DNA from: Proteinivorax tanatarense | Lineage (GTDB): Bacteria; Bacillota; Proteinivoracia; Proteinivoracales; Proteinivoracaceae | NCBI RefSeq assembly: GCF_040267685.1 | Contig: NZ_CP158367.1 | Coordinates: 310,001 to 374,000 of the forward strand | Length of the DNA stretch: 64,000 nucleotides | Reading direction: 5' to 3' | Shown here: piece after piece, positions 430 to 28,962 of the stretch | Numbering within the stretch: the first letter of the stretch is position 1 | Layout: each line of letters begins with the position of its first letter | The notes under the pieces: model-generated | Seen by the model: the letters and a program-made list of their open reading frames with translations, nothing else | Database searches by the model: none | Told to the model about the DNA's origin: nothing | Translations under genes and position numbers: made by a program

Positions 430-1959
430 ATGAGCGAAAAAGTAACCCAAGATCAAATTAACTCTGTCCTATGGCAAGCGGCAGACACATTTAGAGGAAA
501 GATAGATTCCAGTACGTACAAAGATTATATCCTGACTATGCTGTTTGTGAAGTATATCAGCGATTCATATAAAGAAAGCGTAGAGCAATACACAGAAAGA
601 TACAATGGAGATGAAAGACGGATAGAGCGTGCCCTATCCAGGGAACGGTTTGTGCTAGAAGAAAACACAACCTTTGACTATCTCTATGAAAGAAGAACCA
701 GCCCAGAAATTGGCGAAACCATCAACAAAGCCCTATCAGGCATAGAGGAAAACAACAGCAGAAAACTTAGAGGAGTATTTAGAAACATAGACTTTAACTC
801 CGAATCGGTGTTAGGAAAAGCCAGAGAAAGAAATGCCATCTTACGTTCATTGCTAGAAGACTTCAATAGATTAAACCTAAGACCCTCGGTACTAGGTGAT
901 GAAGATATAATTGGAGATGCATATCAATACATGATTGGCGAGTTTGCTTCAGGTGCCGGTAAAAAAGGTGGAGAGTTTTACACCCCTGGAATGGCATCAG
1001 AGCTACTAGCTCGTCTAGTTAAGCCAGAGGAGAACGACCGTATCTACGACCCTACCTGTGGATCTGGCTCGTTACTTATTAAAGTGGCAAACAAGGTGCC
1101 AAATAAAAAGGTCGCCATCTACGGTCAAGAGCGAAATGGTGCAACCCATTCCCTAGCTCTTATGAATATGTACCTTCACGGCATTGACGATGCCAAGTTA
1201 CAGTGGGGCGATACCCTAGCAAATCCTCTACACCTAGAAGATGAAAAGCTAATGAAGTTCCAAGCCATAGTAGCAAATCCGCCATTTTCACTGGACAAAT
1301 GGGCTATGGGCTTTGCAGGAGAGGGTGCCAACGACAAGAAGTTTAAAATGGACGCCAGCTTAGACCCCCATCGCCGTTTTGAGTGGGGAGTACCACCATC
1401 GTCAAAAGGCGATTACGCTTTCGTTCAACACATGCTTTACTCGCTAGCAGAAAATGGCCGCATGGCAACAATCCTACCCCATGGAGTGCTGTTTAGAGGA
1501 GCTAGCGAAGGCAAAATCAGAAAGCAAATAATAGACATGAACCTACTAGATGCAGTTATTGGCCTACCGGAAAAACTTTTCTACGGCACAGGGATTCCAG
1601 CCTGCATCATGGTATTTAAAAAGAATCGTCAGCGAAAAGATGTGCTATTTATCGATGCATCAGGGGAAGGAAACTACGAAAAAGGTAAAAACCAAAACCG
1701 CATGAGAGAACAAGACATAGCAAAAATAGTTGAAACCTACGAAAACTACGAAATAAAAGACAAATACTCCTATGTAGCTACACTAGATGAAATAAAAGAA
1801 AACGACTACAACCTTAATATTCCTCGCTACGTAGATACCTTCGAAGAGGAAGAACCGGTGGACATGGAACAGGTGAAAGGAAATATTAAAGACATAAAAA
1901 AAGAACTTAGCGAAGTGGAAGAGCAGATGGAAAAATATTTGGAAGAACTAGGATTGTAG
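430..1959 (+). CDS. hsdM: Type I restriction-modification methyltransferase subunit
   Basis: This 509-residue adenine-N6 DNA methylase is the M subunit of a type I R-M complex; with HsdS it methylates the host recognition site. Visible marks: a helical HsdM N-terminal domain (about 1-150), GGEFYTP (180-186), the S-adenosylmethionine-binding motif DPTCGSG (207-213) and the catalytic NPPF (283-286). The C-terminal 35 residues are a charged helix that would contact HsdS. The ATG follows GGGGGAGAAAAA at good spacing. It lies 12 nt after the upstream S-like gene and 113 nt before hsdS. Length is normal and nothing looks broken. Confidence 0.97.
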   Translation: MSEKVTQDQINSVLWQAADTFRGKIDSSTYKDYILTMLFVKYISDSYKESVEQYTERYNGDERRIERALSRERFVLEENTTFDYLYERRTSPEIGETINKALSGIEENNSRKLRGVFRNIDFNSESVLGKARERNAILRSLLEDFNRLNLRPSVLGDEDIIGDAYQYMIGEFASGAGKKGGEFYTPGMASELLARLVKPEENDRIYDPTCGSGSLLIKVANKVPNKKVAIYGQERNGATHSLALMNMYLHGIDDAKLQWGDTLANPLHLEDEKLMKFQAIVANPPFSLDKWAMGFAGEGANDKKFKMDASLDPHRRFEWGVPPSSKGDYAFVQHMLYSLAENGRMATILPHGVLFRGASEGKIRKQIIDMNLLDAVIGLPEKLFYGTGIPACIMVFKKNRQRKDVLFIDASGEGNYEKGKNQNRMREQDIAKIVETYENYEIKDKYSYVATLDEIKENDYNLNIPRYVDTFEEEEPVDMEQVKGNIKDIKKELSEVEEQMEKYLEELGL

Positions 1960-2072
1960 AAAATAATTATGATAATAATTAGGCTTAAGCTTAGCTTTCA
2001 AACAAACGAGTCTTTTTGACAGTTAAATTTCACATATAAAGCATTAACAACTTTAAATAGAAGGTGAAAATT

Positions 2073-3236
2073 ATGGGAAACAAAAGAAGTAACAATTGGA
2101 GGGTAGGTCGATTACAAGAAATAGCATATGTCGTTATGGGGCAGTCACCGCCTGGAAGTTCATATAACACTGAAGGGAAAGGAGTAGGTCTAATAAATGG
2201 ACCTACAGAGTTTACAAAAAAACATCCTGTTGTTAAACAATGGACAGTAGAACCTAAAAAATATTGTGAAAATAGAGATGTTTTATTATGTGTAAGAGGG
2301 AGTTCAACGGGCAGAATTAACATATCAGACAGTAAATATTGTATTGGTAGGGGAGTTGCAGCCATCTCAGCTAGAGAAAATATGGGTGTTACAGACTATA
2401 TATACTATCTGATTGATCACAAAGTAAATAACCTTTTAAACTGTACAACCGGTTCGACTTTTCCTAATTTAAGTAGTGCAGAAATAAAAGGATTTGAAAT
2501 AAAAATTCCCTCTCTACCTGAACAACAAAAAATAGCTTCCATCCTATCAACATGGGATAAGGCTATACAGTTAAAAGAAAAGCTAATCCAGCAGAAAAAA
2601 GAACAGAAAAAAGGCCTGATGCAAAAGCTTCTAACAGGAGAAAAAAGACTTCCTGGGTTTGAGGGAGAGTGGGAAGAAGTAAAGTTGGGGGAAGTTATTA
2701 AAGAAAGCAAGGATAAAACATTAAAACATAACCAATATCCAGTGCTAACTTCATCAAGGAAAGGTATATACTTACAAGATAAGTATTTCTCCAAACAAGT
2801 TGCTAGCAGAAATAATACTGGCTACAAAATTATTAAAGAAGGTGAGTTTACTTATCGAACTATGAGTGATGATGGAAAATTTGTTTTTAATAGATTGGCT
2901 GATGTTCCAGTGGGCATTGTTAGTCCAGCATATGTTGTTTTTAGAGCTGTAGAAATGGAACCAGTTTTTCTAGAAGAGTTTTTGAATTCTCATCAGTTTA
3001 ACAGGTATATAAGAGCTAATGTTCAAGGTGGTACACGACTTAGTTATAAATATAAGAGTCTATCAGAAACTATAGTTAAGATACCTTCTAAAGATGAACA
3101 AAAAGCAATAGCAGACATTATTTTGCAATCAAATAAAGAAATAAAGCTACTACAACAAGAACTAGAACAACTAAAACAACAAAAGAAAGGCCTAATGCAG
3201 CTATTGCTTACGGGAAAAGTCAGAGTAAAGGTTTAA
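2073..3236 (+). CDS. hsdS: Type I restriction-modification specificity subunit
   Basis: This 387-residue S subunit sets the DNA target of the HsdM/HsdR complex. It shows the classic two-half architecture: two variable target-recognition domains (about 10-150 and 200-340), each followed by a similar conserved spacer helix. The first spacer carries LPEQQKIASIL and QKKGLMQKLLTG; the second carries DEQKAIADIIL and QKKGLMQLLLTG. I start at ATG 2073, six bases after AGAAGGTGA; a GTG at 2064 lies inside that ribosome-binding site. A TTGACA element near 2018 could give a local promoter, but no good -10 follows. The two domains differ, as expected for a bipartite target. Confidence 0.95.
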   Translation: MGNKRSNNWRVGRLQEIAYVVMGQSPPGSSYNTEGKGVGLINGPTEFTKKHPVVKQWTVEPKKYCENRDVLLCVRGSSTGRINISDSKYCIGRGVAAISARENMGVTDYIYYLIDHKVNNLLNCTTGSTFPNLSSAEIKGFEIKIPSLPEQQKIASILSTWDKAIQLKEKLIQQKKEQKKGLMQKLLTGEKRLPGFEGEWEEVKLGEVIKESKDKTLKHNQYPVLTSSRKGIYLQDKYFSKQVASRNNTGYKIIKEGEFTYRTMSDDGKFVFNRLADVPVGIVSPAYVVFRAVEMEPVFLEEFLNSHQFNRYIRANVQGGTRLSYKYKSLSETIVKIPSKDEQKAIADIILQSNKEIKLLQQELEQLKQQKKGLMQLLLTGKVRVKV

Positions 3237-3280
3237 CCTTTACTCCTTTTCCCATTTAACAAAGAAATGGAGGTGTAGTT

Positions 3281-6200
3281 TTGAGATATTCAAGTCAAAG
3301 CGAAGAAAATATAAGCCAGCAGCCTGCTATTGAAGTGCTGCAAGGTTTGGGGTATGAGTATATAGCTCCCGAAAAAGCAGAGCAGATGCGAATTAGTATG
3401 TATAGCCCTTTTCTCAACTCAGTTCTAGAAGAAAAACTAAAAGAGTTAAATTCCTTTGAGTACAAAGGACAGCAGCACTCTTTTAGCGATGGTAACATTC
3501 AAAAAGCTATCAGGGACTTAGACGAGCCCCTTACTGACGGCCTTGTCAAAACCAACGAAAAAATATACGAATCTTTAATGCTGGGTCGCAGTTATACAGA
3601 GTACCTGCCCGATGGATCTATCAAATCTTTTACCCTCAAATACATAGACTGGGAAAATATCGAAAACAACTCATTTCATATAGTAGAGGAATTTTCCGTA
3701 GAGCGAGAAACAGGGGATGAAATGGCACGGCCGGATATCGTTCTGTTCATTAACGGTATTCCTTTTGCTGTTATTGAGTGCAAAAAGGCAGCTATGGGTG
3801 TAGCCCAAGGTGTAGAGCAAACTATCCGTAATCAGCGCAATGACTATATTCCACAACTTTTTAAGTTTGTTCAGCTAGTTATGGCAACAAATAAGAACGA
3901 AGTAAAATATGCCACCTGTGGCACCCCAAAAAGATTTTGGTCTGTGTGGAAAGAAGAGCATGAAACGTGGCTCAACGAACATTTACAAACCCTAGTCACC
4001 AACCGAATCGCCACCACTCAAGACAAAAACATCATCTCCCTATGTCATCCAAAGCGTTTGTTGGAGCTAACTAAATTTTTTACTGTCTTTGATAAAGACA
4101 TAAAGAAAATATGTCGCTATCAACAATACTTTGCCATAAAGGAAATTATAGAAACAATAGGAACCTACGACGAAGCGGGCAACCGCCAAAGCGGGGTTAT
4201 TTGGCATACCCAAGGCTCTGGCAAAAGTTTAACAATGGTAATGCTAGCTAAATATATTTTATCTAACCTTGCTAAACACAGCCCTAAGGTTGTAATTGTT
4301 ACAGACAGGGTGGAGCTAGACAAGCAAATTCATAACACCTTTAACCACACAAGGCTAAAAGCTAGCCGAGCAAGATCTGGATCACACCTAGTAGATCTTA
4401 TCGATGATAACAATGCCGACATTATAACCACATTGGTCCACAAGTTTGACACAGCATCCCAAACCAGCGACGCCATAGAATCAAAAGATGTTTTTGTGCT
4501 GGTAGATGAAAGTCACAGAACCCAGTATGGAGAGCTGCACACCAAAATGAAAAGGGTATTTCCAAATGCCTGCTATTTAGGTTTTACCGGAACCCCCCTT
4601 ATGAAAAAAGAAAAAAACACCATGATAAAATTTGGCAAGCTAATCCACACCTACACCATAGCCGATGGGGTCAAAGACAAAGCTATCTTACCGCTGTTAT
4701 ATGAAGGCAAGATGGTGGAGCAAACAATTAACCAAAACGCTGTAGACAGGAAACTAGAAATGATTACCCGACATCTTAACGAAAAGCAAAAAGATGAGGT
4801 TATGCAAAAATGGTCCCAGTATGAAAGAATAGCATCGTCGGACCAGCGGATAGAAATGATAGCCTTTGACATTAACAAACACTTCTTTGACAACTACAAA
4901 ACTCAAGGCTCACAGTTTAAAGCTATGCTAGCTACAAACAGCAAAATCGAAGCCATTCGCTACTTTGATGCCTTTGAAGAGTTAGGAGATTTAAACACTG
5001 CTGTGGTAATATCCCCACCGGATAAGCGAGAGGGATACGATGCCGTAGATGAAGAATCCAAAAACAAAGTTATTAACTTTTGGAGCAAAATGATGAACCG
5101 CTATGGCAGCGAAGAAGCTTATGAAGATGCCATAAAAGACGAGTTTGTAAATGGCGATGAAATAGATCTGTTAATAGTGGTTGATAAGCTACTAACAGGC
5201 TTTGATGCCCCTAAAGCTACAGTGCTATATATCGATAAGCCCCTAAAAGAGCATACACTCCTACAAGCTATAGCAAGAGTAAACCGCCTCCATGAAGGAA
5301 AGGATTACGGTTTTATCATAGACTACAGAGGTCTACTTGAAAGGCTGGACACCGCCATGGAGATGTACTCCGGCGCTGGCCTAGAAAACTTTGATCCCGA
5401 AGATTTAAAGGGAGCACTACATGATGTAATCAGTGTAATAGGTTCTTTAAGACAATACCACTCAGAGCTTATGGATATATTTGCACCAATAAAGAACAAA
5501 GGAGACAGTGAAGAGTATGAAGTGCTGCTAGCTGACGAAGAACTGCGAGAAGATTTTTACGAAGTCCTTAGTAAATTTGGCCGTAACCTAGGTATAGCGT
5601 TAGAATCGGAAAAAATTTACGATGCCATAGGACAAAAAGAGCTAAACAAATACAAAAAAGATCTAAAGTTCTTCCAAAGTCTTAGAAAGACCGTAAAACT
5701 TCGCTACTCCGACACCGTAGACCACAAAGAATACGAAGCAAAGATGCAAAAAATAATGGACCAGTATATATCCTCAGAAGATATCATGAGGATAACCAAT
5801 CCAGTAGATATCCTAAACGAAAAAGACTTTGAAGATGAGCTAGACCGTCTAGGTTCAAAAAGGGCTAAAGCAGATGCCATCCAATCAAGGCTTACAAAAA
5901 GCATAAACGCCAAATGGGATGAAAACCCCGCCCACTATAAAAAGTTTTCACAAAGACTACAGGATATACTAGACGAGTACAGAGAACGCCGCATATCAGA
6001 AAAAGAATACTTTGAAAAAATGAAGGACCTTATGAATGACTACCGCCAAGGCGAGCCCACTGATGACTATCCAGAGACCATAAAGAAAAATAAATCAGCC
6101 CAAGCTTTTTACGGAGTAACAAAAGAAGTGGTCCTAGACAATAAAGAAAGTAATATTAACTATGATGCAATAGGAAAGCTGGCACTAGAAGTGGATAAAA

Positions 6201-6379
6201 TTATTCAAAAGTATGCCAAAGTAGACTGGAAAAACAACCCCGAAGTCCATAACCGCATAGAACAAGAAGTAGATGACCTAATATTTGATTTTACTGAAGA
6301 ACAAGGCATTGATTTAAGCGTAGATGAAATAGATAAACTACTAGAACAAGTTAAAAAAATAGCTCAAAGACGTTACTAG
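3281..6379 (+). CDS. hsdR: Type I restriction endonuclease subunit R
   Basis: This 1032-residue R subunit is the ATP-driven DNA translocase and nuclease of the complex. Motifs in order: a PD-(D/E)xK nuclease with D152 and E166-C-K168; Walker A TQGSGKS (310-316); helicase motif II DESH (409-412); motif III GFTGTP (434-439); and motif VI-like LLQAIARVNR near residue 660. A helical C-terminal region follows. The start is TTG 3281, directly downstream of GGAGGTG (3269-3275), and no nearer ATG fits. All catalytic motifs are intact, so the enzyme should be active. It ends 14 nt before the metallopeptidase gene and is probably cotranscribed with it. Confidence 0.97.
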   Translation: MRYSSQSEENISQQPAIEVLQGLGYEYIAPEKAEQMRISMYSPFLNSVLEEKLKELNSFEYKGQQHSFSDGNIQKAIRDLDEPLTDGLVKTNEKIYESLMLGRSYTEYLPDGSIKSFTLKYIDWENIENNSFHIVEEFSVERETGDEMARPDIVLFINGIPFAVIECKKAAMGVAQGVEQTIRNQRNDYIPQLFKFVQLVMATNKNEVKYATCGTPKRFWSVWKEEHETWLNEHLQTLVTNRIATTQDKNIISLCHPKRLLELTKFFTVFDKDIKKICRYQQYFAIKEIIETIGTYDEAGNRQSGVIWHTQGSGKSLTMVMLAKYILSNLAKHSPKVVIVTDRVELDKQIHNTFNHTRLKASRARSGSHLVDLIDDNNADIITTLVHKFDTASQTSDAIESKDVFVLVDESHRTQYGELHTKMKRVFPNACYLGFTGTPLMKKEKNTMIKFGKLIHTYTIADGVKDKAILPLLYEGKMVEQTINQNAVDRKLEMITRHLNEKQKDEVMQKWSQYERIASSDQRIEMIAFDINKHFFDNYKTQGSQFKAMLATNSKIEAIRYFDAFEELGDLNTAVVISPPDKREGYDAVDEESKNKVINFWSKMMNRYGSEEAYEDAIKDEFVNGDEIDLLIVVDKLLTGFDAPKATVLYIDKPLKEHTLLQAIARVNRLHEGKDYGFIIDYRGLLERLDTAMEMYSGAGLENFDPEDLKGALHDVISVIGSLRQYHSELMDIFAPIKNKGDSEEYEVLLADEELREDFYEVLSKFGRNLGIALESEKIYDAIGQKELNKYKKDLKFFQSLRKTVKLRYSDTVDHKEYEAKMQKIMDQYISSEDIMRITNPVDILNEKDFEDELDRLGSKRAKADAIQSRLTKSINAKWDENPAHYKKFSQRLQDILDEYRERRISEKEYFEKMKDLMNDYRQGEPTDDYPETIKKNKSAQAFYGVTKEVVLDNKESNINYDAIGKLALEVDKIIQKYAKVDWKNNPEVHNRIEQEVDDLIFDFTEEQGIDLSVDEIDKLLEQVKKIAQRRY

Positions 6380-14325: not shown

Positions 14326-15555
14326 ATGAGTAAAAAAACTATGTGTTTTATTTTTTTGCTTATATTAGCACTATTTATTTCTGGATGTAACGGGGGCAAA
14401 GAAGATGAAATAAATTGGCAGGTGTATGCTAACGAATATTACGAGGTAAAATATCCTGAAGGCTGGGATGTAATCGCCTTCAACAATAGTGTTACTTTTT
14501 CCAAAGGCGAAGCTAATGATATATGGGATGTTAGTGTAAAACCAGTTGGTGTTGATGGGAAAGAGGGTTTTCATGAGGATATTAAGAAATCTAAAGAGGA
14601 ATCTGAAAAAGCAGGCGATGTAATTGAAGAGATTTTGGAAACTGAAATAGGGGGACAGCCTGCGTACAAGGTGAAGGTCACCAATTCTGAATTTGAGGCA
14701 AAAGGTTATTTTATATCTATTTATAAAAATAACGTAGCATTTGATTTTGCGTTTACTGCCATGGAAGAGGATTATTATGATGACATTAACTATATAGAAG
14801 AAATGGTAGATTCCTTAAAAATAAAAGAATTTGCCACCTATCACGGTGACATTAAGGAATTTATAGCGGAAAATGGTAAAGCAATTGATACTTACAATTT
14901 AAATGATTTTTCAGCTTTTAATCTTTTATATGATGATTTAGAAGAAAATACAATATTTCTAACAGGAGAGCACCATGGAGTTGCCGACAACAGTGTGTTG
15001 GATTTGAAATTTTTAAATTATTTAGTAAAAGAGGCTGGGGTAAAGTATTACTTGGCAGAGACCTCGTTTAGTAACGCTCAGCTAATCAATAGGTACTTAA
15101 AAACAGGGGATGAAAGTTTTTTGGACGAACTATTCGAATCTCAAGTTGGAACTTTTGCAGGAAATGAAAATGAGTTTAATAAATGGAAAGAGCTGTATAA
15201 GCTTAACAAAACTTTACCCAAAGAGGACAGAATAAAGGTAGTTGGTGTTGACATAGAGCACCAGTTTGAAAATGGTGTTAGATACATGTACTCTTTGATA
15301 GATAAAGAAAATGTGCCAAGTGAGATAGAGTCAGAGATTAATGAGTTAATAGACATATATGAAAGTGAAAGGTATGATTATTGGTCTGTGCACAGAACTA
15401 TTAGTAATATTAGAGAGAGTTTAAACTCTAAAAAAGATATATATGAAGAATTTTTAGGAGAAGAGTTATTTGAATTTAAACTTGTTAATGAAAACATCTA
15501 TACTTTGCGTAGATTTAATGACACTGAGGGGGCAAAACCTCCGGGTCAGGCCTGA
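14326..15555 (+). CDS. Lipoprotein with erythromycin esterase/ChaN-like domain, truncated by a repeat
   Basis: Residues 1-21 are a lipoprotein signal ending in lipobox ISGC (C21), so the protein should be anchored on the outer face of the membrane. Residues about 35-160 resemble a DUF1795/PsbP-like domain (YEVKYPEGWDV). Residues about 205-400 resemble the erythromycin-esterase/ChaN/TIKI fold (TGEHHGVADN; a VVGVDIEHQ segment). The final residues GAKPPGQA are encoded by the GGGTCAGGC repeat at 15528-15567, so the natural C-terminus is lost. The ATG follows GGGAGGAAAA. It may be partly active or dead; domain calls are moderate. Confidence 0.65.
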   Translation: MSKKTMCFIFLLILALFISGCNGGKEDEINWQVYANEYYEVKYPEGWDVIAFNNSVTFSKGEANDIWDVSVKPVGVDGKEGFHEDIKKSKEESEKAGDVIEEILETEIGGQPAYKVKVTNSEFEAKGYFISIYKNNVAFDFAFTAMEEDYYDDINYIEEMVDSLKIKEFATYHGDIKEFIAENGKAIDTYNLNDFSAFNLLYDDLEENTIFLTGEHHGVADNSVLDLKFLNYLVKEAGVKYYLAETSFSNAQLINRYLKTGDESFLDELFESQVGTFAGNENEFNKWKELYKLNKTLPKEDRIKVVGVDIEHQFENGVRYMYSLIDKENVPSEIESEINELIDIYESERYDYWSVHRTISNIRESLNSKKDIYEEFLGEELFEFKLVNENIYTLRRFNDTEGAKPPGQA

Positions 15556-22269: not shown

Positions 22270-23232
22270 TTAACTTAAATTTATTTTCCAATGGGTATTG
22301 AATCCCATAGTTTTAAGAATTTCACATATATTAACTGATATAAATTTATTCTCATACTTATTGAAAAGGTTTTCTAAGTTCTTTAATAATGACTTATATT
22401 CATTTTTTGGGGTTACTAACTTTAAAAAGGCAATAATTGAAAAAAGATTTCCTGTACTAATAGTTTTTTCTCTTAATTTTATGGAACGTGCAATATCGGC
22501 ATATTTAGAAGGCTTATGTAACTTAAAGTTATATAGACGTTCTTCATGTGCGCATACATTTCTAAACAAGGTTGCAGTTTTTAGGATATTGGTTAGCATA
22601 CTAGGAGTAAAATGGATTTTCGTTCTATGCTCACGCTGGAAGCAATGTGAAAATTCCTTGGCAATATCGTTTTGTATTTTATCATCAAGACATTCATAAA
22701 AATTTTGTATATTTCCTAGTGTTAAATACTTAACCAAGACCCACAATGGAACCCCATCATGGTTATCTAAATAATGTTTAATAGGGTTGTTTTTGCTAGA
22801 TTGCTTAGAGATGACATTGGTTATAACAGAAATCAATTGTAAAATTTGTTTAAGTTTTTTTGGGTCTCTAGAATAACTTAACATATTTAAGTAGGCGTTC
22901 GATTCAGTGTATGTTTTTGAAAAGTGATATGAAAGCTTAGATTTTATGCTGCTTTCGAATTTTAATAACTCTTTAAGTACAATGCTCCTAAGATCTCGAT
23001 CGAAACAATATAGAGAATAAATCTCCTCGATAGACGCTTTTTCTTTATATGACTCAGGAGTAATAGGGGTGCCATTTTCGTGTTTTTGTAAGAACAGATC
23101 TTTATAACCGTTAATAAGCGCATAATAATTTTCTTTTTCTAAAATCCTCATAGCTCTTGAACCATTCTGAACAGTCAAGCCTCTACTTCTAAGAATCCTT
23201 AGCTGCTGCCTATAGGTTTTGAAAGGTTTCAA
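22270..23232 (-). CDS. AbiD/AbiF-like abortive infection protein (Abi_2 family)
   Basis: This protein of about 320 residues belongs to the Abi_2 (AbiD/AbiF) family. Typical segments are KPFKTYRQQLRILRSRGL at the start, ENYYALINGYKDLF, CFDRDLRSIVLKELLKFE, and the HEPN RNase motif RNVCAH (R224, H229) followed by EERLYN. Members block phage growth by RNA cleavage. I start at TTG 23232, six bases from GAGGTG; a GTG at 23241 lies in that site. A short RNA gene with its own promoter and terminator lies immediately upstream, an arrangement reported for AbiF-type systems in which the RNA acts as antitoxin. All motifs are intact. Confidence 0.88.
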   Translation of the reverse strand: MKPFKTYRQQLRILRSRGLTVQNGSRAMRILEKENYYALINGYKDLFLQKHENGTPITPESYKEKASIEEIYSLYCFDRDLRSIVLKELLKFESSIKSKLSYHFSKTYTESNAYLNMLSYSRDPKKLKQILQLISVITNVISKQSSKNNPIKHYLDNHDGVPLWVLVKYLTLGNIQNFYECLDDKIQNDIAKEFSHCFQREHRTKIHFTPSMLTNILKTATLFRNVCAHEERLYNFKLHKPSKYADIARSIKLREKTISTGNLFSIIAFLKLVTPKNEYKSLLKNLENLFNKYENKFISVNICEILKTMGFNTHWKINLS

Positions 23233-23246
23233 AATAATCACCTCAT

Positions 23247-23290
23247 AAAAAAAGGCCCAGTCCTCGTAAGGAGCATGAGCCGGATCGTTA
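23247..23290 (-). ncRNA. Short RNA upstream of abi (antitoxin or attenuator)
   Basis: On the minus strand, transcription predicted from about 23290 gives roughly 43 nt ending in a hairpin and seven U (23247-23253). The hairpin is GGCTCA with TGGGCC, an internal loop, then TCCT-TACG-AGGA with a four-base loop. It ends 14 bases before the abi start codon. It can be a separate small RNA, as known for AbiF systems, or a leader whose terminator limits abi transcription. Confidence 0.65.
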
Positions 23291-23295
23291 ACTTA

Positions 23296-23324
23296 ATTAT
23301 AATATATTACATGATGAACGTCAA
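23296..23324 (-). promoter_or_regulatory. Strong promoter for the abi-linked RNA
   Basis: On the minus strand TTGACG (23319-23324) and TATAAT (23296-23301) are exactly 17 bp apart, close to the sigma-A consensus. Confidence 0.85.
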
Positions 23325-23511
23325 TATGTAGTATAACCCTAAATTTTAAAAAAATCATACTTAAATTTTACAGTCCAATAATAGTCCCTTTTAGTTTACA
23401 ATCCACTACCCTGTCTTTGATCCATTATTAGAGTAGTTATCTAAGTATGACTGGATTTGTTGACAACAGAGTGTTATCATCTCATTGTTTAAACGTTTTT
23501 TGCCTTGGGAG

Positions 23512-23546: not shown

Positions 23547-23574
23547 CTCGCCGCTCCATAGCTTGTGAGCAAAA

Positions 23575-23957
23575 ATTACGACACTTCAAAGCCATATGAC
23601 GATCACTATACCAACAAATACAACAAAGGCTGACTACACAAAGTCCCCACATATCAGCTGTTCAAGAGTATTCCCCACAAAGCTACTACGGCAAAGAACA
23701 AGTTATAAAACCAAGAATAGGGCAAGGGGCATTAAGGTCCTAATAACTGATGCATACCAAAGAAGATGCAGCATCACAGGAGAAAAAACTTTGCCAGTGT
23801 AGAAGCAGCTCACATAAGACCATATAAAAGAAGACTTCGGAAACGGCAAAGAATACTACACATACCACGGCCAAAAGCTATCAATACTACCAAAAACAAA
23901 AGAACACCAGGAGGTAACTACCTTCAATGGCATAATGAGAATGTTTACTTGGGCTAA
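23575..23957 (+). pseudogene. Decayed HNH endonuclease gene, copy E
   Basis: This is the most complete of the five relics. In shifting frames it gives VLITDAYQRRCSITGEKTLP, then EAAHIRPYK (the HNH core CxxTG...AAHI) and finally GGNYLQWHNENVYLG, the usual end of this HNH family. Frameshifts lie near 23595 and 23790, and a piece between AAHIRPYK and the C-terminus is missing. It cannot encode an active enzyme. Confidence 0.75.
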
Positions 23958-23974: not shown

Positions 23975-24030
23975 CAAATGGGGACGGTGACTTTTTTTAC
24001 TCATTATTTGTATAAAACACCAGTGTTTTA
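23975..24030. repeat. REP-like GGGGACGGTGACTTTTT and a palindrome
   Basis: AAATGGGGACGGTGACTTTT has relatives at 25514 (GGGGACGTTGACTGACTTTT) and 31356 (GGGGATGGTGACTTTTTAG). It is followed at 24014-24029 by the perfect palindrome AAAACACCAGTGTTTT. No gene is seen from 23958 to 24243. Confidence 0.55.
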
Positions 24031-24243: not shown

Positions 24244-25044
24244 ATGGGGAAGATATCGGAAAAGCACCTAGACTATTCTTTACAATGTAGCAGAGCTACT
24301 TTGGAGATGGAGGAGTTATATCCATCTAAAGAAAATGATGAGGTATGCTATAAGATAGCAGCTGGGGATTTGAATCAGCAACAAGCTATTGATGGGATAG
24401 TTAATTCTATGAAATTAGATAAAAGTCAAGGGGTTGAGCAGGAAGTTAGTTCATATTCTAAGTACTGCTATGAAGGATCTTTGGTGCTAATTAACAACTT
24501 CAATATTCGCAGTAAAGATAAGCTACTAAAGGCCGAGGGTGAGTTAGCTAGAATACGAGAGTTTGCTTTAAAGCTGGCTCCAAAACCTGGTCAGTTTGAC
24601 CTTCCACATTTACAAGAAATTCACAAGTTTTTGTTTCAGGATATCTACCCTTTTGCCGGAAAGTTGAGGCAGGAGAATATAAGCAAAGGCAACTCTATAT
24701 TCCTTCCAGTAGAACAGTTTCAAAATGGGATTCCTTACTTTTTTCAATACCTTAACAAAAGAATTGCCAAACCTGATGGCCTTAAATTAGATGACCTTGC
24801 AGCAAAGCTTGCGTACTATATGTCGGAGCTAAACTTTATACACCCCTTTAGAGAGGGCAACGGCCGCACGCAACGAGAATTCATTCGCTGCCTAGCTCTC
24901 AAATACGGCTACACAATAAATTGGGCTAGCGTTGGCAAACTCAAATTAAAAGAAGCGACGATAAAAGCTTTTGATGACCCTAATGATCTACTGGATTTAG
25001 CTGGGTGTATTAAAGAAGGGATTAATATTTACTCCTTTTTGTAG
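24244..25044 (+). CDS. Fic domain protein (probable AMPylase/NMPylase)
   Basis: This 266-residue protein has a complete Fic active site, HPFREGNGRTQR (200-211), within the usual helical Fic domain (about 110-235), including PFAGKLRQENISKGNSIFLP. Fic enzymes transfer nucleotide monophosphates to target proteins and often act as toxins. The N-terminal 80 residues form a separate helical region that may hold an inhibitory helix, although I do not see a clear [ST]xxxE[GN] motif. The ATG follows GGAGTGATG. No separate antitoxin gene lies next to it, but a large structured RNA begins about 100 bp downstream. Confidence 0.9.
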   Translation: MGKISEKHLDYSLQCSRATLEMEELYPSKENDEVCYKIAAGDLNQQQAIDGIVNSMKLDKSQGVEQEVSSYSKYCYEGSLVLINNFNIRSKDKLLKAEGELARIREFALKLAPKPGQFDLPHLQEIHKFLFQDIYPFAGKLRQENISKGNSIFLPVEQFQNGIPYFFQYLNKRIAKPDGLKLDDLAAKLAYYMSELNFIHPFREGNGRTQREFIRCLALKYGYTINWASVGKLKLKEATIKAFDDPNDLLDLAGCIKEGINIYSFL

Positions 25045-25108: not shown

Positions 25109-25138
25109 TTGAAAAAAATAAAGAGTTTATTATATAAT
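25109..25138 (+). promoter_or_regulatory. Promoter for the 370-nt structured RNA
   Basis: TTGAAA (25109-25114) and TATAAT (25133-25138) are 18 bp apart in very AT-rich sequence; transcription would begin near 25145. Confidence 0.7.
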
Positions 25139-25144
25139 ATAAAA

Positions 25145-25517
25145 TAAAAAAAAATAATAACTTTGGGCAGGGTGTAGTCGGTAATTCCTAATCGACATTA
25201 TAAATTTAGGGATAGGTTAAACCATAAACTTGTATGGTTGTTAATTCCTAACACAAGTGTCGCTTGTTCCAATATTAAGCGACTAATAAATGCAGGGACT
25301 TATTCATCTTGCCTAAAATCTAGCTAGGCAAACCTGTTTTGTCGGCAATCCCCGGACCGACTAAAAGCCATACTTAAACAACCGTACTTTAACAAATTTG
25401 GGGATAGGCTAAACAGTTTAAAACTTGTAACAACTGGTGATGTCTAAAACACAAGTATTGTTGTCCGATTGACAATTAAAAGAAGGCGGACTAAGGTTCG
25501 TTTGCCTAGCTTTTTTA
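25145..25517 (+). ncRNA. Unassigned structured RNA with two homologous domains
   Basis: About 370 nt with many perfect helices and no reading frame. Helices include a GTCG/CGAC hairpin with AATTCCTAAT loop (about 25178-25196), ACTTGT/ACAAGT (domain 1), GTCGCTT/AAGCGAC, TTGCCTA/TAGGCAA, GTCGG/CCGAC, and ACTTGT/ACAAGT again (domain 2) followed by TTGTC/GACAA. It ends in GGCGGAC/GTTTGCC plus six T. Both domains begin GGGATAGG(C/T)TAAAC. I cannot match it to a known class (compare raiA, OLE, ROOL and the riboswitches). Downstream sequence is decayed, so its partner gene, if any, is lost. Confidence 0.65.
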
Positions 25518-25667
25518 AAATGGGGACGTTGACTGACTTTTTTAGGCGATGGGCTACTAAAGAACGCTATTTATCAACTTATGTTAAGCTAGAAACTATC
25601 AAAAATGTGTTGGGAAAAAGCAAAAAAGGGTTGGAAATATTGTGGGAGCATTTTTAGGGTCGTTGAC
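25514..25667 (+). other. REP-like motif and a short C-terminal-looking gene fragment
   Basis: After the RNA terminator there is a GGGGACGTTGACTGACTTTT motif, then an open frame RWATKERYLSTYVKLETIKN continuing to KKGLEILWEHF and a stop at 25657. No start or ribosome-binding site is present. It looks like the tail of an unidentified protein gene brought in by recombination. Confidence 0.35.
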
Positions 25668-25804
25668 TCCGTTTTGCACATGTTCACCCTATACCTGTAA
25701 TGCTAGGGTTTTATAAAGCAGGAGTGCCTTTTGGTGTAACTATGTCGTTCTTTTTTGCTTCGCCATTGCTACATCCAATTATTGTAGGACTTATGTTAAT
25801 ACAA
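25668..25804 (+). pseudogene. Permease (DUF318/UPF0718-like) fragment
   Basis: About 45 residues read HVHPIPVMLGFYKAGVPFGV then TMSFFFASPLLHPIIVGLML, the conserved core of DUF318-type membrane permeases (compare GVPLGxxLAFLxASPLxNP). Both ends are missing; the 3' edge is exactly the GGGTCAGGC repeat at 25806. Confidence 0.5.
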
Positions 25805-26675: not shown

Positions 26676-26749
26676 ATTAAACTCTTTAAATCGTTGATTT
26701 TTATCTAGTATTGGGTTAGAATTAGATTTATATTTTATAACTGAATAAC

Positions 26750-26820
26750 TAATCGTATATTTTTGGAAATATGGTCCATAAGTTTCTACCAGACTACCGT
26801 AAATGGTCTGACTACGGACT
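26750..26820 (+). promoter_or_regulatory. Purine riboswitch, guanine/xanthine type
   Basis: The three-way junction is visible: P1 TCGTA/TACGG; the L2 loop AATATGG; J2/3 and flank AAGTTTCTACC; P3 AGAC/GTCT around ACCGTAAAT; and J3/1 GAC before TACGG. The C in this junction is the specificity base and indicates guanine rather than adenine. J1/2 deviates somewhat from the consensus. Confidence 0.88.
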
Positions 26821-26856
26821 TTGTTTGCTGCTTATGGCAGTGGATATTTTTGTTAT

Positions 26857-28873: not shown

Positions 28874-28962
28874 AAGAAGAAAGGCAAATCCTGCTTCTTC
28901 ATTTTTTACACCTAAAAGAAAAAGCAGATAATCCCAATGGGACTATCTGCTTTTTCTTTTAG
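28874..28962 (+). terminator. Two hairpins between HAD and merR genes
   Basis: The first (GAAGAA...TTCTTC, followed by six T at about 28892-28898) can end the HAD transcript. The second is a near-perfect long inverted repeat: the 19-base arm starting CTAAAAGAAAAAGCAG (28912-28930) pairs with 28944-28962, extended by ATCCC/GGGAC. Confidence 0.75.

Follow-up and report, generated by a model that had tools for sequence, protein, structure and literature searches.

The locus at 25109-25517 (+) lies between a Fic gene and a broken permease fragment, and it raises the question of what, if not a protein, it specifies. Coordinates are those of the window, the whole 64-kb stretch of DNA analysed (positions 310,001-374,000 of a 3.09-Mb genome; 35% G+C). 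The sequence-only reading had proposed a dedicated RNA gene with a strong promoter, a terminator and no reading frame, and all three elements withstood closer inspection. Only 8 promoter sites as good as this one (TTGAAA and TATAAT, 18 nt apart; Table 1) occur in the window, both strands counted, and we infer that transcription starts near 25145. No sense open reading frame of at least 30 aa lies inside the ~370 nt, the longest being a 29-aa TTG frame; a 62-aa TTG frame at 25469 consists mostly of the downstream permease remnant. At the 3' end, the local terminator-like hairpin is accompanied by a better terminator stem, P1B, which runs directly into the T6 tract. The local hairpin competes with both PK3B and P1B for its two strands, is incompatible with either, and has a pairing probability of about 0 in the full-length fold. 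The predicted transcript, ~25145-25516, is made up of a 17-nt leader, domain A, a 4-nt linker, domain B and the T tract. Since only the leader, the linker and the T tract fall outside the domains, the predicted ends of the transcript are the ends of the domains.

The two domains are built alike. A closing helix, P1, surrounds a P2 hairpin, a first pseudoknot (PK1), an H-type pseudoknot formed by P3 and P4, a P5 hairpin and a last pseudoknot, PK3. P2 is a GTCGG..YCGAC hairpin whose loop pairs with a conserved GGGAT downstream to form PK1; P3 encloses ACTTGT, which pairs with the more distal ACAAGT (P4); and PK3 joins the P5 loop to GGGAC or CGGAC close to the domain end. Each domain also carries a core (AUAGGyUAAAC; AAACUUGU/ACACAAGU) that is modeled as mostly single-stranded. 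The two homologous segments described earlier are indeed present (GGGATAGGTTAAAC at 25209-25222 and GGGATAGGCTAAAC at 25401-25414, ACTTGT at 25228 and 25423, ACAAGT at 25253 and 25451, with a short hairpin after each). The existence of two related copies is thus borne out, but their extent had been underestimated, as the duplication spans the whole predicted transcript. The pseudoknots, which that description omitted, are the main feature of each domain.

Table 1. Features of the RNA locus and its surroundings in window coordinates; p values are from shuffled strands.
Feature	Position	Strand	Details
Type I restriction (RM) genes	430-6379		
Other genes: AAA_15 ATPase (OLD-like), DUF3800, transposase, helicase remnant			
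RhuM-like gene			assigned by reading PDC-S05 matches and the sequence
AbiD (Abi_2) gene	22270-23241	-	
HNH restriction-like gene remnant	23569-23957	+	assigned by reading PDC-S05 matches and the sequence
Fic gene	24244-25044	+	HPFREGNGR motif intact
Promoter	25109-25138	+	-35 TTGAAA 25109-25114, 18-nt spacer, -10 TATAAT 25133-25138; 11/12 consensus
Domain A (156 nt)	25162-25317	+	P1A 25162-25174/25305-25317; p=0.0002; pairing probability 0.97
P2A hairpin	25177-25196	+	strands 25177-25181/25192-25196; p=0.031
PK1A	25184-25189/25208-25213	+	P2A loop ATTCCT with AGGGAT; p=0.016
Core A	25202-25222	+	AAATTTAGGGATAGGTTAAAC; 19/21 identical to core B
H-type pseudoknot A	25220-25258	+	P3A AACCAT 25220-25225/ATGGTT 25234-25239, p=0.039; P4A ACTTGT 25228-25233/ACAAGT 25253-25258, p=0.019
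P5A and PK3A	25259-25299	+	P5A GTCGCTT 25259-25265/AAGCGAC 25277-25283, p=0.0025; PK3A loop GTTCC 25266-25270 with GGGAC 25295-25299, p=0.19
Domain B (190 nt)	25322-25511	+	P1B 25322-25333/25500-25511, 12 perfect pairs; p=0.0005; pairing probability 0.88
P2B hairpin	25341-25361	+	strands 25341-25345/25357-25361; p=0.057
PK1B	25348-25353/25400-25405	+	P2B loop ATCCCC with GGGGAT; p=0.0025
Extra segment of domain B (~31 nt)	25364-25394	+	two imperfect 14-nt units (GCCATACTTAAACAA, CCGTACTTTAACAA)
Core B	25394-25414	+	AAATTTGGGGATAGGCTAAAC
H-type pseudoknot B	25414-25456	+	P3B CAGTT 25414-25418/AACTG 25432-25436, p=0.017; P4B ACTTGT 25423-25428/ACAAGT 25451-25456, p=0.021
P5B and PK3B	25457-25491	+	P5B ATTGT 25457-25461/ACAAT 25472-25476, p=0.046; PK3B loop GTCCG 25463-25467 with CGGAC 25487-25491, p=0.05
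Local terminator-like hairpin	25484-25507	+	AGGCGGAC/GTTTGCCT
T6 tract	25511-25516	+	predicted 3' end of transcript

The local alignment of A with B scored 36.5, against a mean of 10.2 (sd 1.7, maximum 18.5) for 2000 shuffles. Identity between the copies reaches 19 of 21 bases in the core and 12 of 12 in P4, against 29 of 48 in the nested helices. Unpaired columns overall (36/65) are no better kept than helices; only the core block is. Each of the 41 comparable pairs is a standard one in A and B alike, with ten two-sided changes, five one-sided changes and no broken pair. The two-sided changes include two in P3, three in P5, one in PK3 and one in PK1, the last with a one-sided change in addition. 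P4 is invariant and covariation therefore says nothing about it. In tests of pair retention, which compare only two copies, aligned by hand with N padding, and helices initially chosen by eye, 30-47% of positions still paired when the 3' strands were slid by 1-3 columns, and replacing the changed bases at random kept a mean of 32-33 of the 41 pairs (best 40; 20,000 trials with each of two null models).

Because such tests favour a structure drawn by eye, we ran a structure-blind stem scan on the A/B alignment. Among stems of at least four pairs, five had two-sided changes, and these were exactly P1, PK1, P3, P5 and PK3 (P=0.035 for the two-sided changes; P=0.25 for stem number alone). Most individual helices also stood out against shuffled strands, PK3A on its own being below significance (Table 1). 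The whole RNA folds with z = -2.7, and 1 of 100 shuffles was equally stable, under a nested model from which the pseudoknots are excluded. Both closing helices form in the nested full-length ensemble. The domain fold is probably correct, though unproven.

One further helix would join the two domains. AACAACCGTAC (25377-25387), in the extra segment of domain B, could form 11 pairs, one of them GU, with GTATGGTTGTT (25232-25242) of domain A. This is the third-best helix of the RNA, and an equally strong third helix was found in 0 of 200 shuffles. As the main fold it was rejected, since enforcing it cost about 10 kcal/mol relative to the two-domain fold; possibly, it is a transient or docking contact.

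The RNA had been described as unassigned, and covariance models agree. Rfam 15, including OLE, ROOL, GOLLD, raiA, HEARO, the DUF3800 motifs and all riboswitches, gave nothing at the gathering cut-off and, at E<=10, nothing above chance (the best, SAM-V, reached 16.3 bits against a cut-off of 41, on the opposite strand). The RNA is single-copy in its genome. Neither the other species in its genus nor the remaining class members searched contain it. A blastn search of 100 relatives returned a single 32-nt match (G058), which lies antisense within hsdS and was hence dismissed as chance. For more distant homologues we used a covariance model, R1, made from the two hand-aligned, N-padded copies with the extra segment of B omitted; R1 served for searching, and the scores that the two copies reach with it follow by construction. 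Applied to the sampled phylum and 398 relatives, R1 yielded no believable homologue, two matches, one in G034 that runs antisense to an ABC-transporter gene and one in G392 at E 0.05, being put down to chance by context or score. Across ~85,000 species genomes, a strict pattern had 0 matches and a relaxed pattern only chance matches, at 96 loci (L032-L127). Of these, 80 were scored with R1, none exceeding 19.5 bits, and for the other 16 the motif alone was inspected by eye. A core-only pattern, run on viral contigs and relatives, also gave only chance matches (best 21 bits, within a riboflavin gene), and the phage and plasmid collections contained no homologue. A homologue with a diverged core could escape these searches. 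As no homologue was found, there is no independent, cross-species covariation, and the compensatory changes are those between the RNA's own two domains.

The neighbourhood is a mosaic of intact and broken defence genes. The HNH restriction-like gene, a remnant here, is intact in the sister species (314 aa; L027 894-1838). Two kinds of short repeat occur in the window, AACCTCCGGGTCAGGC at 15536, 23515 and 25810 (+) and AATGGGGACGGTGACT at 23977, 25519 and 31361 (+), and both have longer relatives in the same genome and in the sister genome. Copies of AATGGGGACGnTGACT at 23977 and 25519, units of the second kind, flank Fic and the RNA on either side. The permease fragment (25580-25800), downstream of the RNA, is broken, and the permease is intact in the sister species. 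Farther along, a purine riboswitch (79.7 bits; 26733-26834, +) precedes a phosphoribosyltransferase (xpt-like) gene, and a long inverted repeat with A/T-rich flanks at 28916-28958, likely a bidirectional terminator, gave spurious microRNA and psm-mec matches in Rfam. ARAGORN detected no tRNA or tmRNA in the window.

The reading that we favour, and to which we give about an even chance, is that of a stand-alone RNA gene of ~370 nt that carries two diverged copies of one triple-pseudoknot domain and serves as a receptor or scaffold with two binding sites. Each domain would be closed by its own P1 and would present the same mostly single-stranded core; on the simplest reading, independent modules, built alike, would offer this core twice. 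Most probably, both cores would recognize one and the same partner, whether protein or ligand, which would make the RNA such a receptor or scaffold. P1B, the closing helix of the 3' domain, would double as the transcription-terminator stem. The absence of an intact reading frame to regulate directly downstream supports this reading. Moreover, as far as can be judged from sequence, the RNA has what is expected of a large ornate RNA: a promoter and terminator of its own, no reading frame and several pseudoknots. The mutual exclusion of P1B/PK3B and the local hairpin counts against a stand-alone gene, which would not need alternative pairings. The earlier proposal of a dedicated structured RNA is thus strengthened by the lack of an Rfam family, the compensatory changes between the copies and the coincidence of transcript and domain ends, whereas its comparison to tandem aptamers or large ornate RNAs stays an analogy. 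More tentatively, the RNA may be the first of a new structured class, marked by triple-pseudoknot modules, an invariant core and a 3' closing helix that ends transcription. Such an RNA would hold a pair of identical partners and might sense or store something within a defence island.

The main rival, which we hold to be unlikely, is a tandem riboswitch-like leader, both domains being aptamers of the same class, whose downstream gene has decayed and left the leader behind. Duplicate domains with an invariant core do resemble tandem aptamers; tandem riboswitches are the subject of a review (PMC9481103), and terminator-embedded aptamers exist, as in HMP-PP/thiS (PMC6478431). The folding of domain B would choose between P1B/PK3B and the local hairpin and so set read-through past T6. 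The competition for both strands of that hairpin is consistent with such a switch, as is a weaker counterpart in domain A, where GCAGGG may pair with TCTTGC. Also, under nested folding of a growing transcript that ends at 25400, an alternative hairpin (25309-25315/25325-25331) beats P1A, 0.83 to 0.10. P1B itself abuts T6, however, so that both states should terminate. A riboswitch should be followed by an intact, co-directional gene or operon, but only the broken permease fragment lies directly downstream. This fragment starts inside its gene and is set apart from the RNA by the repeat unit at 25519, and no comparable RNA leader stands before the intact permease in the sister species. Nor does another copy of the RNA precede any gene in this genome or in the genomes searched.

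It seems improbable that the RNA belongs to a defence or toxin-antitoxin module, for instance as a type III-like RNA antitoxin acting with Fic, AbiD or a lost toxin. Type III antitoxins are typified by RNAs of repeated pseudoknots, and the defence-gene context (type I RM, AAA_15/OLD-like, RhuM-like, helicase remnant, AbiD, Fic) would suit such a role. The repeats of type III systems are 34-50 nt long (PMC12373285), however, against 156 and 190 nt for the domains described here. In those systems the tandem repeats immediately precede a toxin gene, from which a terminator separates them; no toxin gene follows the RNA. In Fic, an N-terminal VbhA-like stretch seems to supply an antitoxin within the same chain, so that the protein would have an antitoxin of its own: in G164, the relative L129 contains a stop codon inside the full-length match, which would fit two separate genes, and under the match of a plasmid relative a VbhA antitoxin is annotated. 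None of the 21 Fic loci of relatives has such an RNA. A short leader of AbiD's own, with promoter, hairpin and terminator, lies at 23242-23330 (-). In the stretch 23237-23330 (-), a TTGACG/TATAAT promoter is followed by a hairpin and a T7 tract ahead of the start codon; this is the layout of AbiF/RCd22 (PMC12373285), with no RF03085 match. Because both Fic and AbiD seem to be supplied with an antitoxin already, neither obviously needs the 370-nt RNA as one. As partners proposed by neighbourhood, both were set aside on these grounds, and so was the permease, whose sister copy lacks the leader.

Least probable of all is a decaying, non-functional relic of a mobile or phage RNA: the RNA does sit between repeat units (23977, 25519) amid broken genes, is single-copy and is missing from the sister species, but its promoter, its terminator and all helices of both domains are intact, with no broken pair in either copy.

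If the stand-alone RNA with two modules is real, it could be defined from one genome by comparing its own halves, and intricate RNA families may exist that are too rare for pipelines based on species comparison. If transcribed, it would offer a compact target, with domains of 156 and 190 nt, for structural and pull-down work. Tandem riboswitches and terminator-embedded aptamers (PMC9481103, PMC6478431) resemble it in having two similar domains in series, an aptamer-like invariant core and a last domain that shares the terminator strands; the RNA described here differs in that no intact gene lies downstream, its domains fit no known aptamer class and each has three pseudoknots. With type III RNAs, including AbiF/RCd22 (PMC12373285), it shares repeated structured units (ToxI pseudoknots), a promoter and terminator and a defence context, but its units are 3-5 times longer, no cognate toxin lies downstream and RF03085 does not match. 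From OLE, ROOL and GOLLD (PMC12286853), the latter two of no known function, it differs in matching no Rfam family, in being clearly shorter (370 nt), in its two-domain internal duplication and in having no tRNA island or phage genes adjoining; like them, it would be a stand-alone bacterial RNA with an elaborate fold and pseudoknots.
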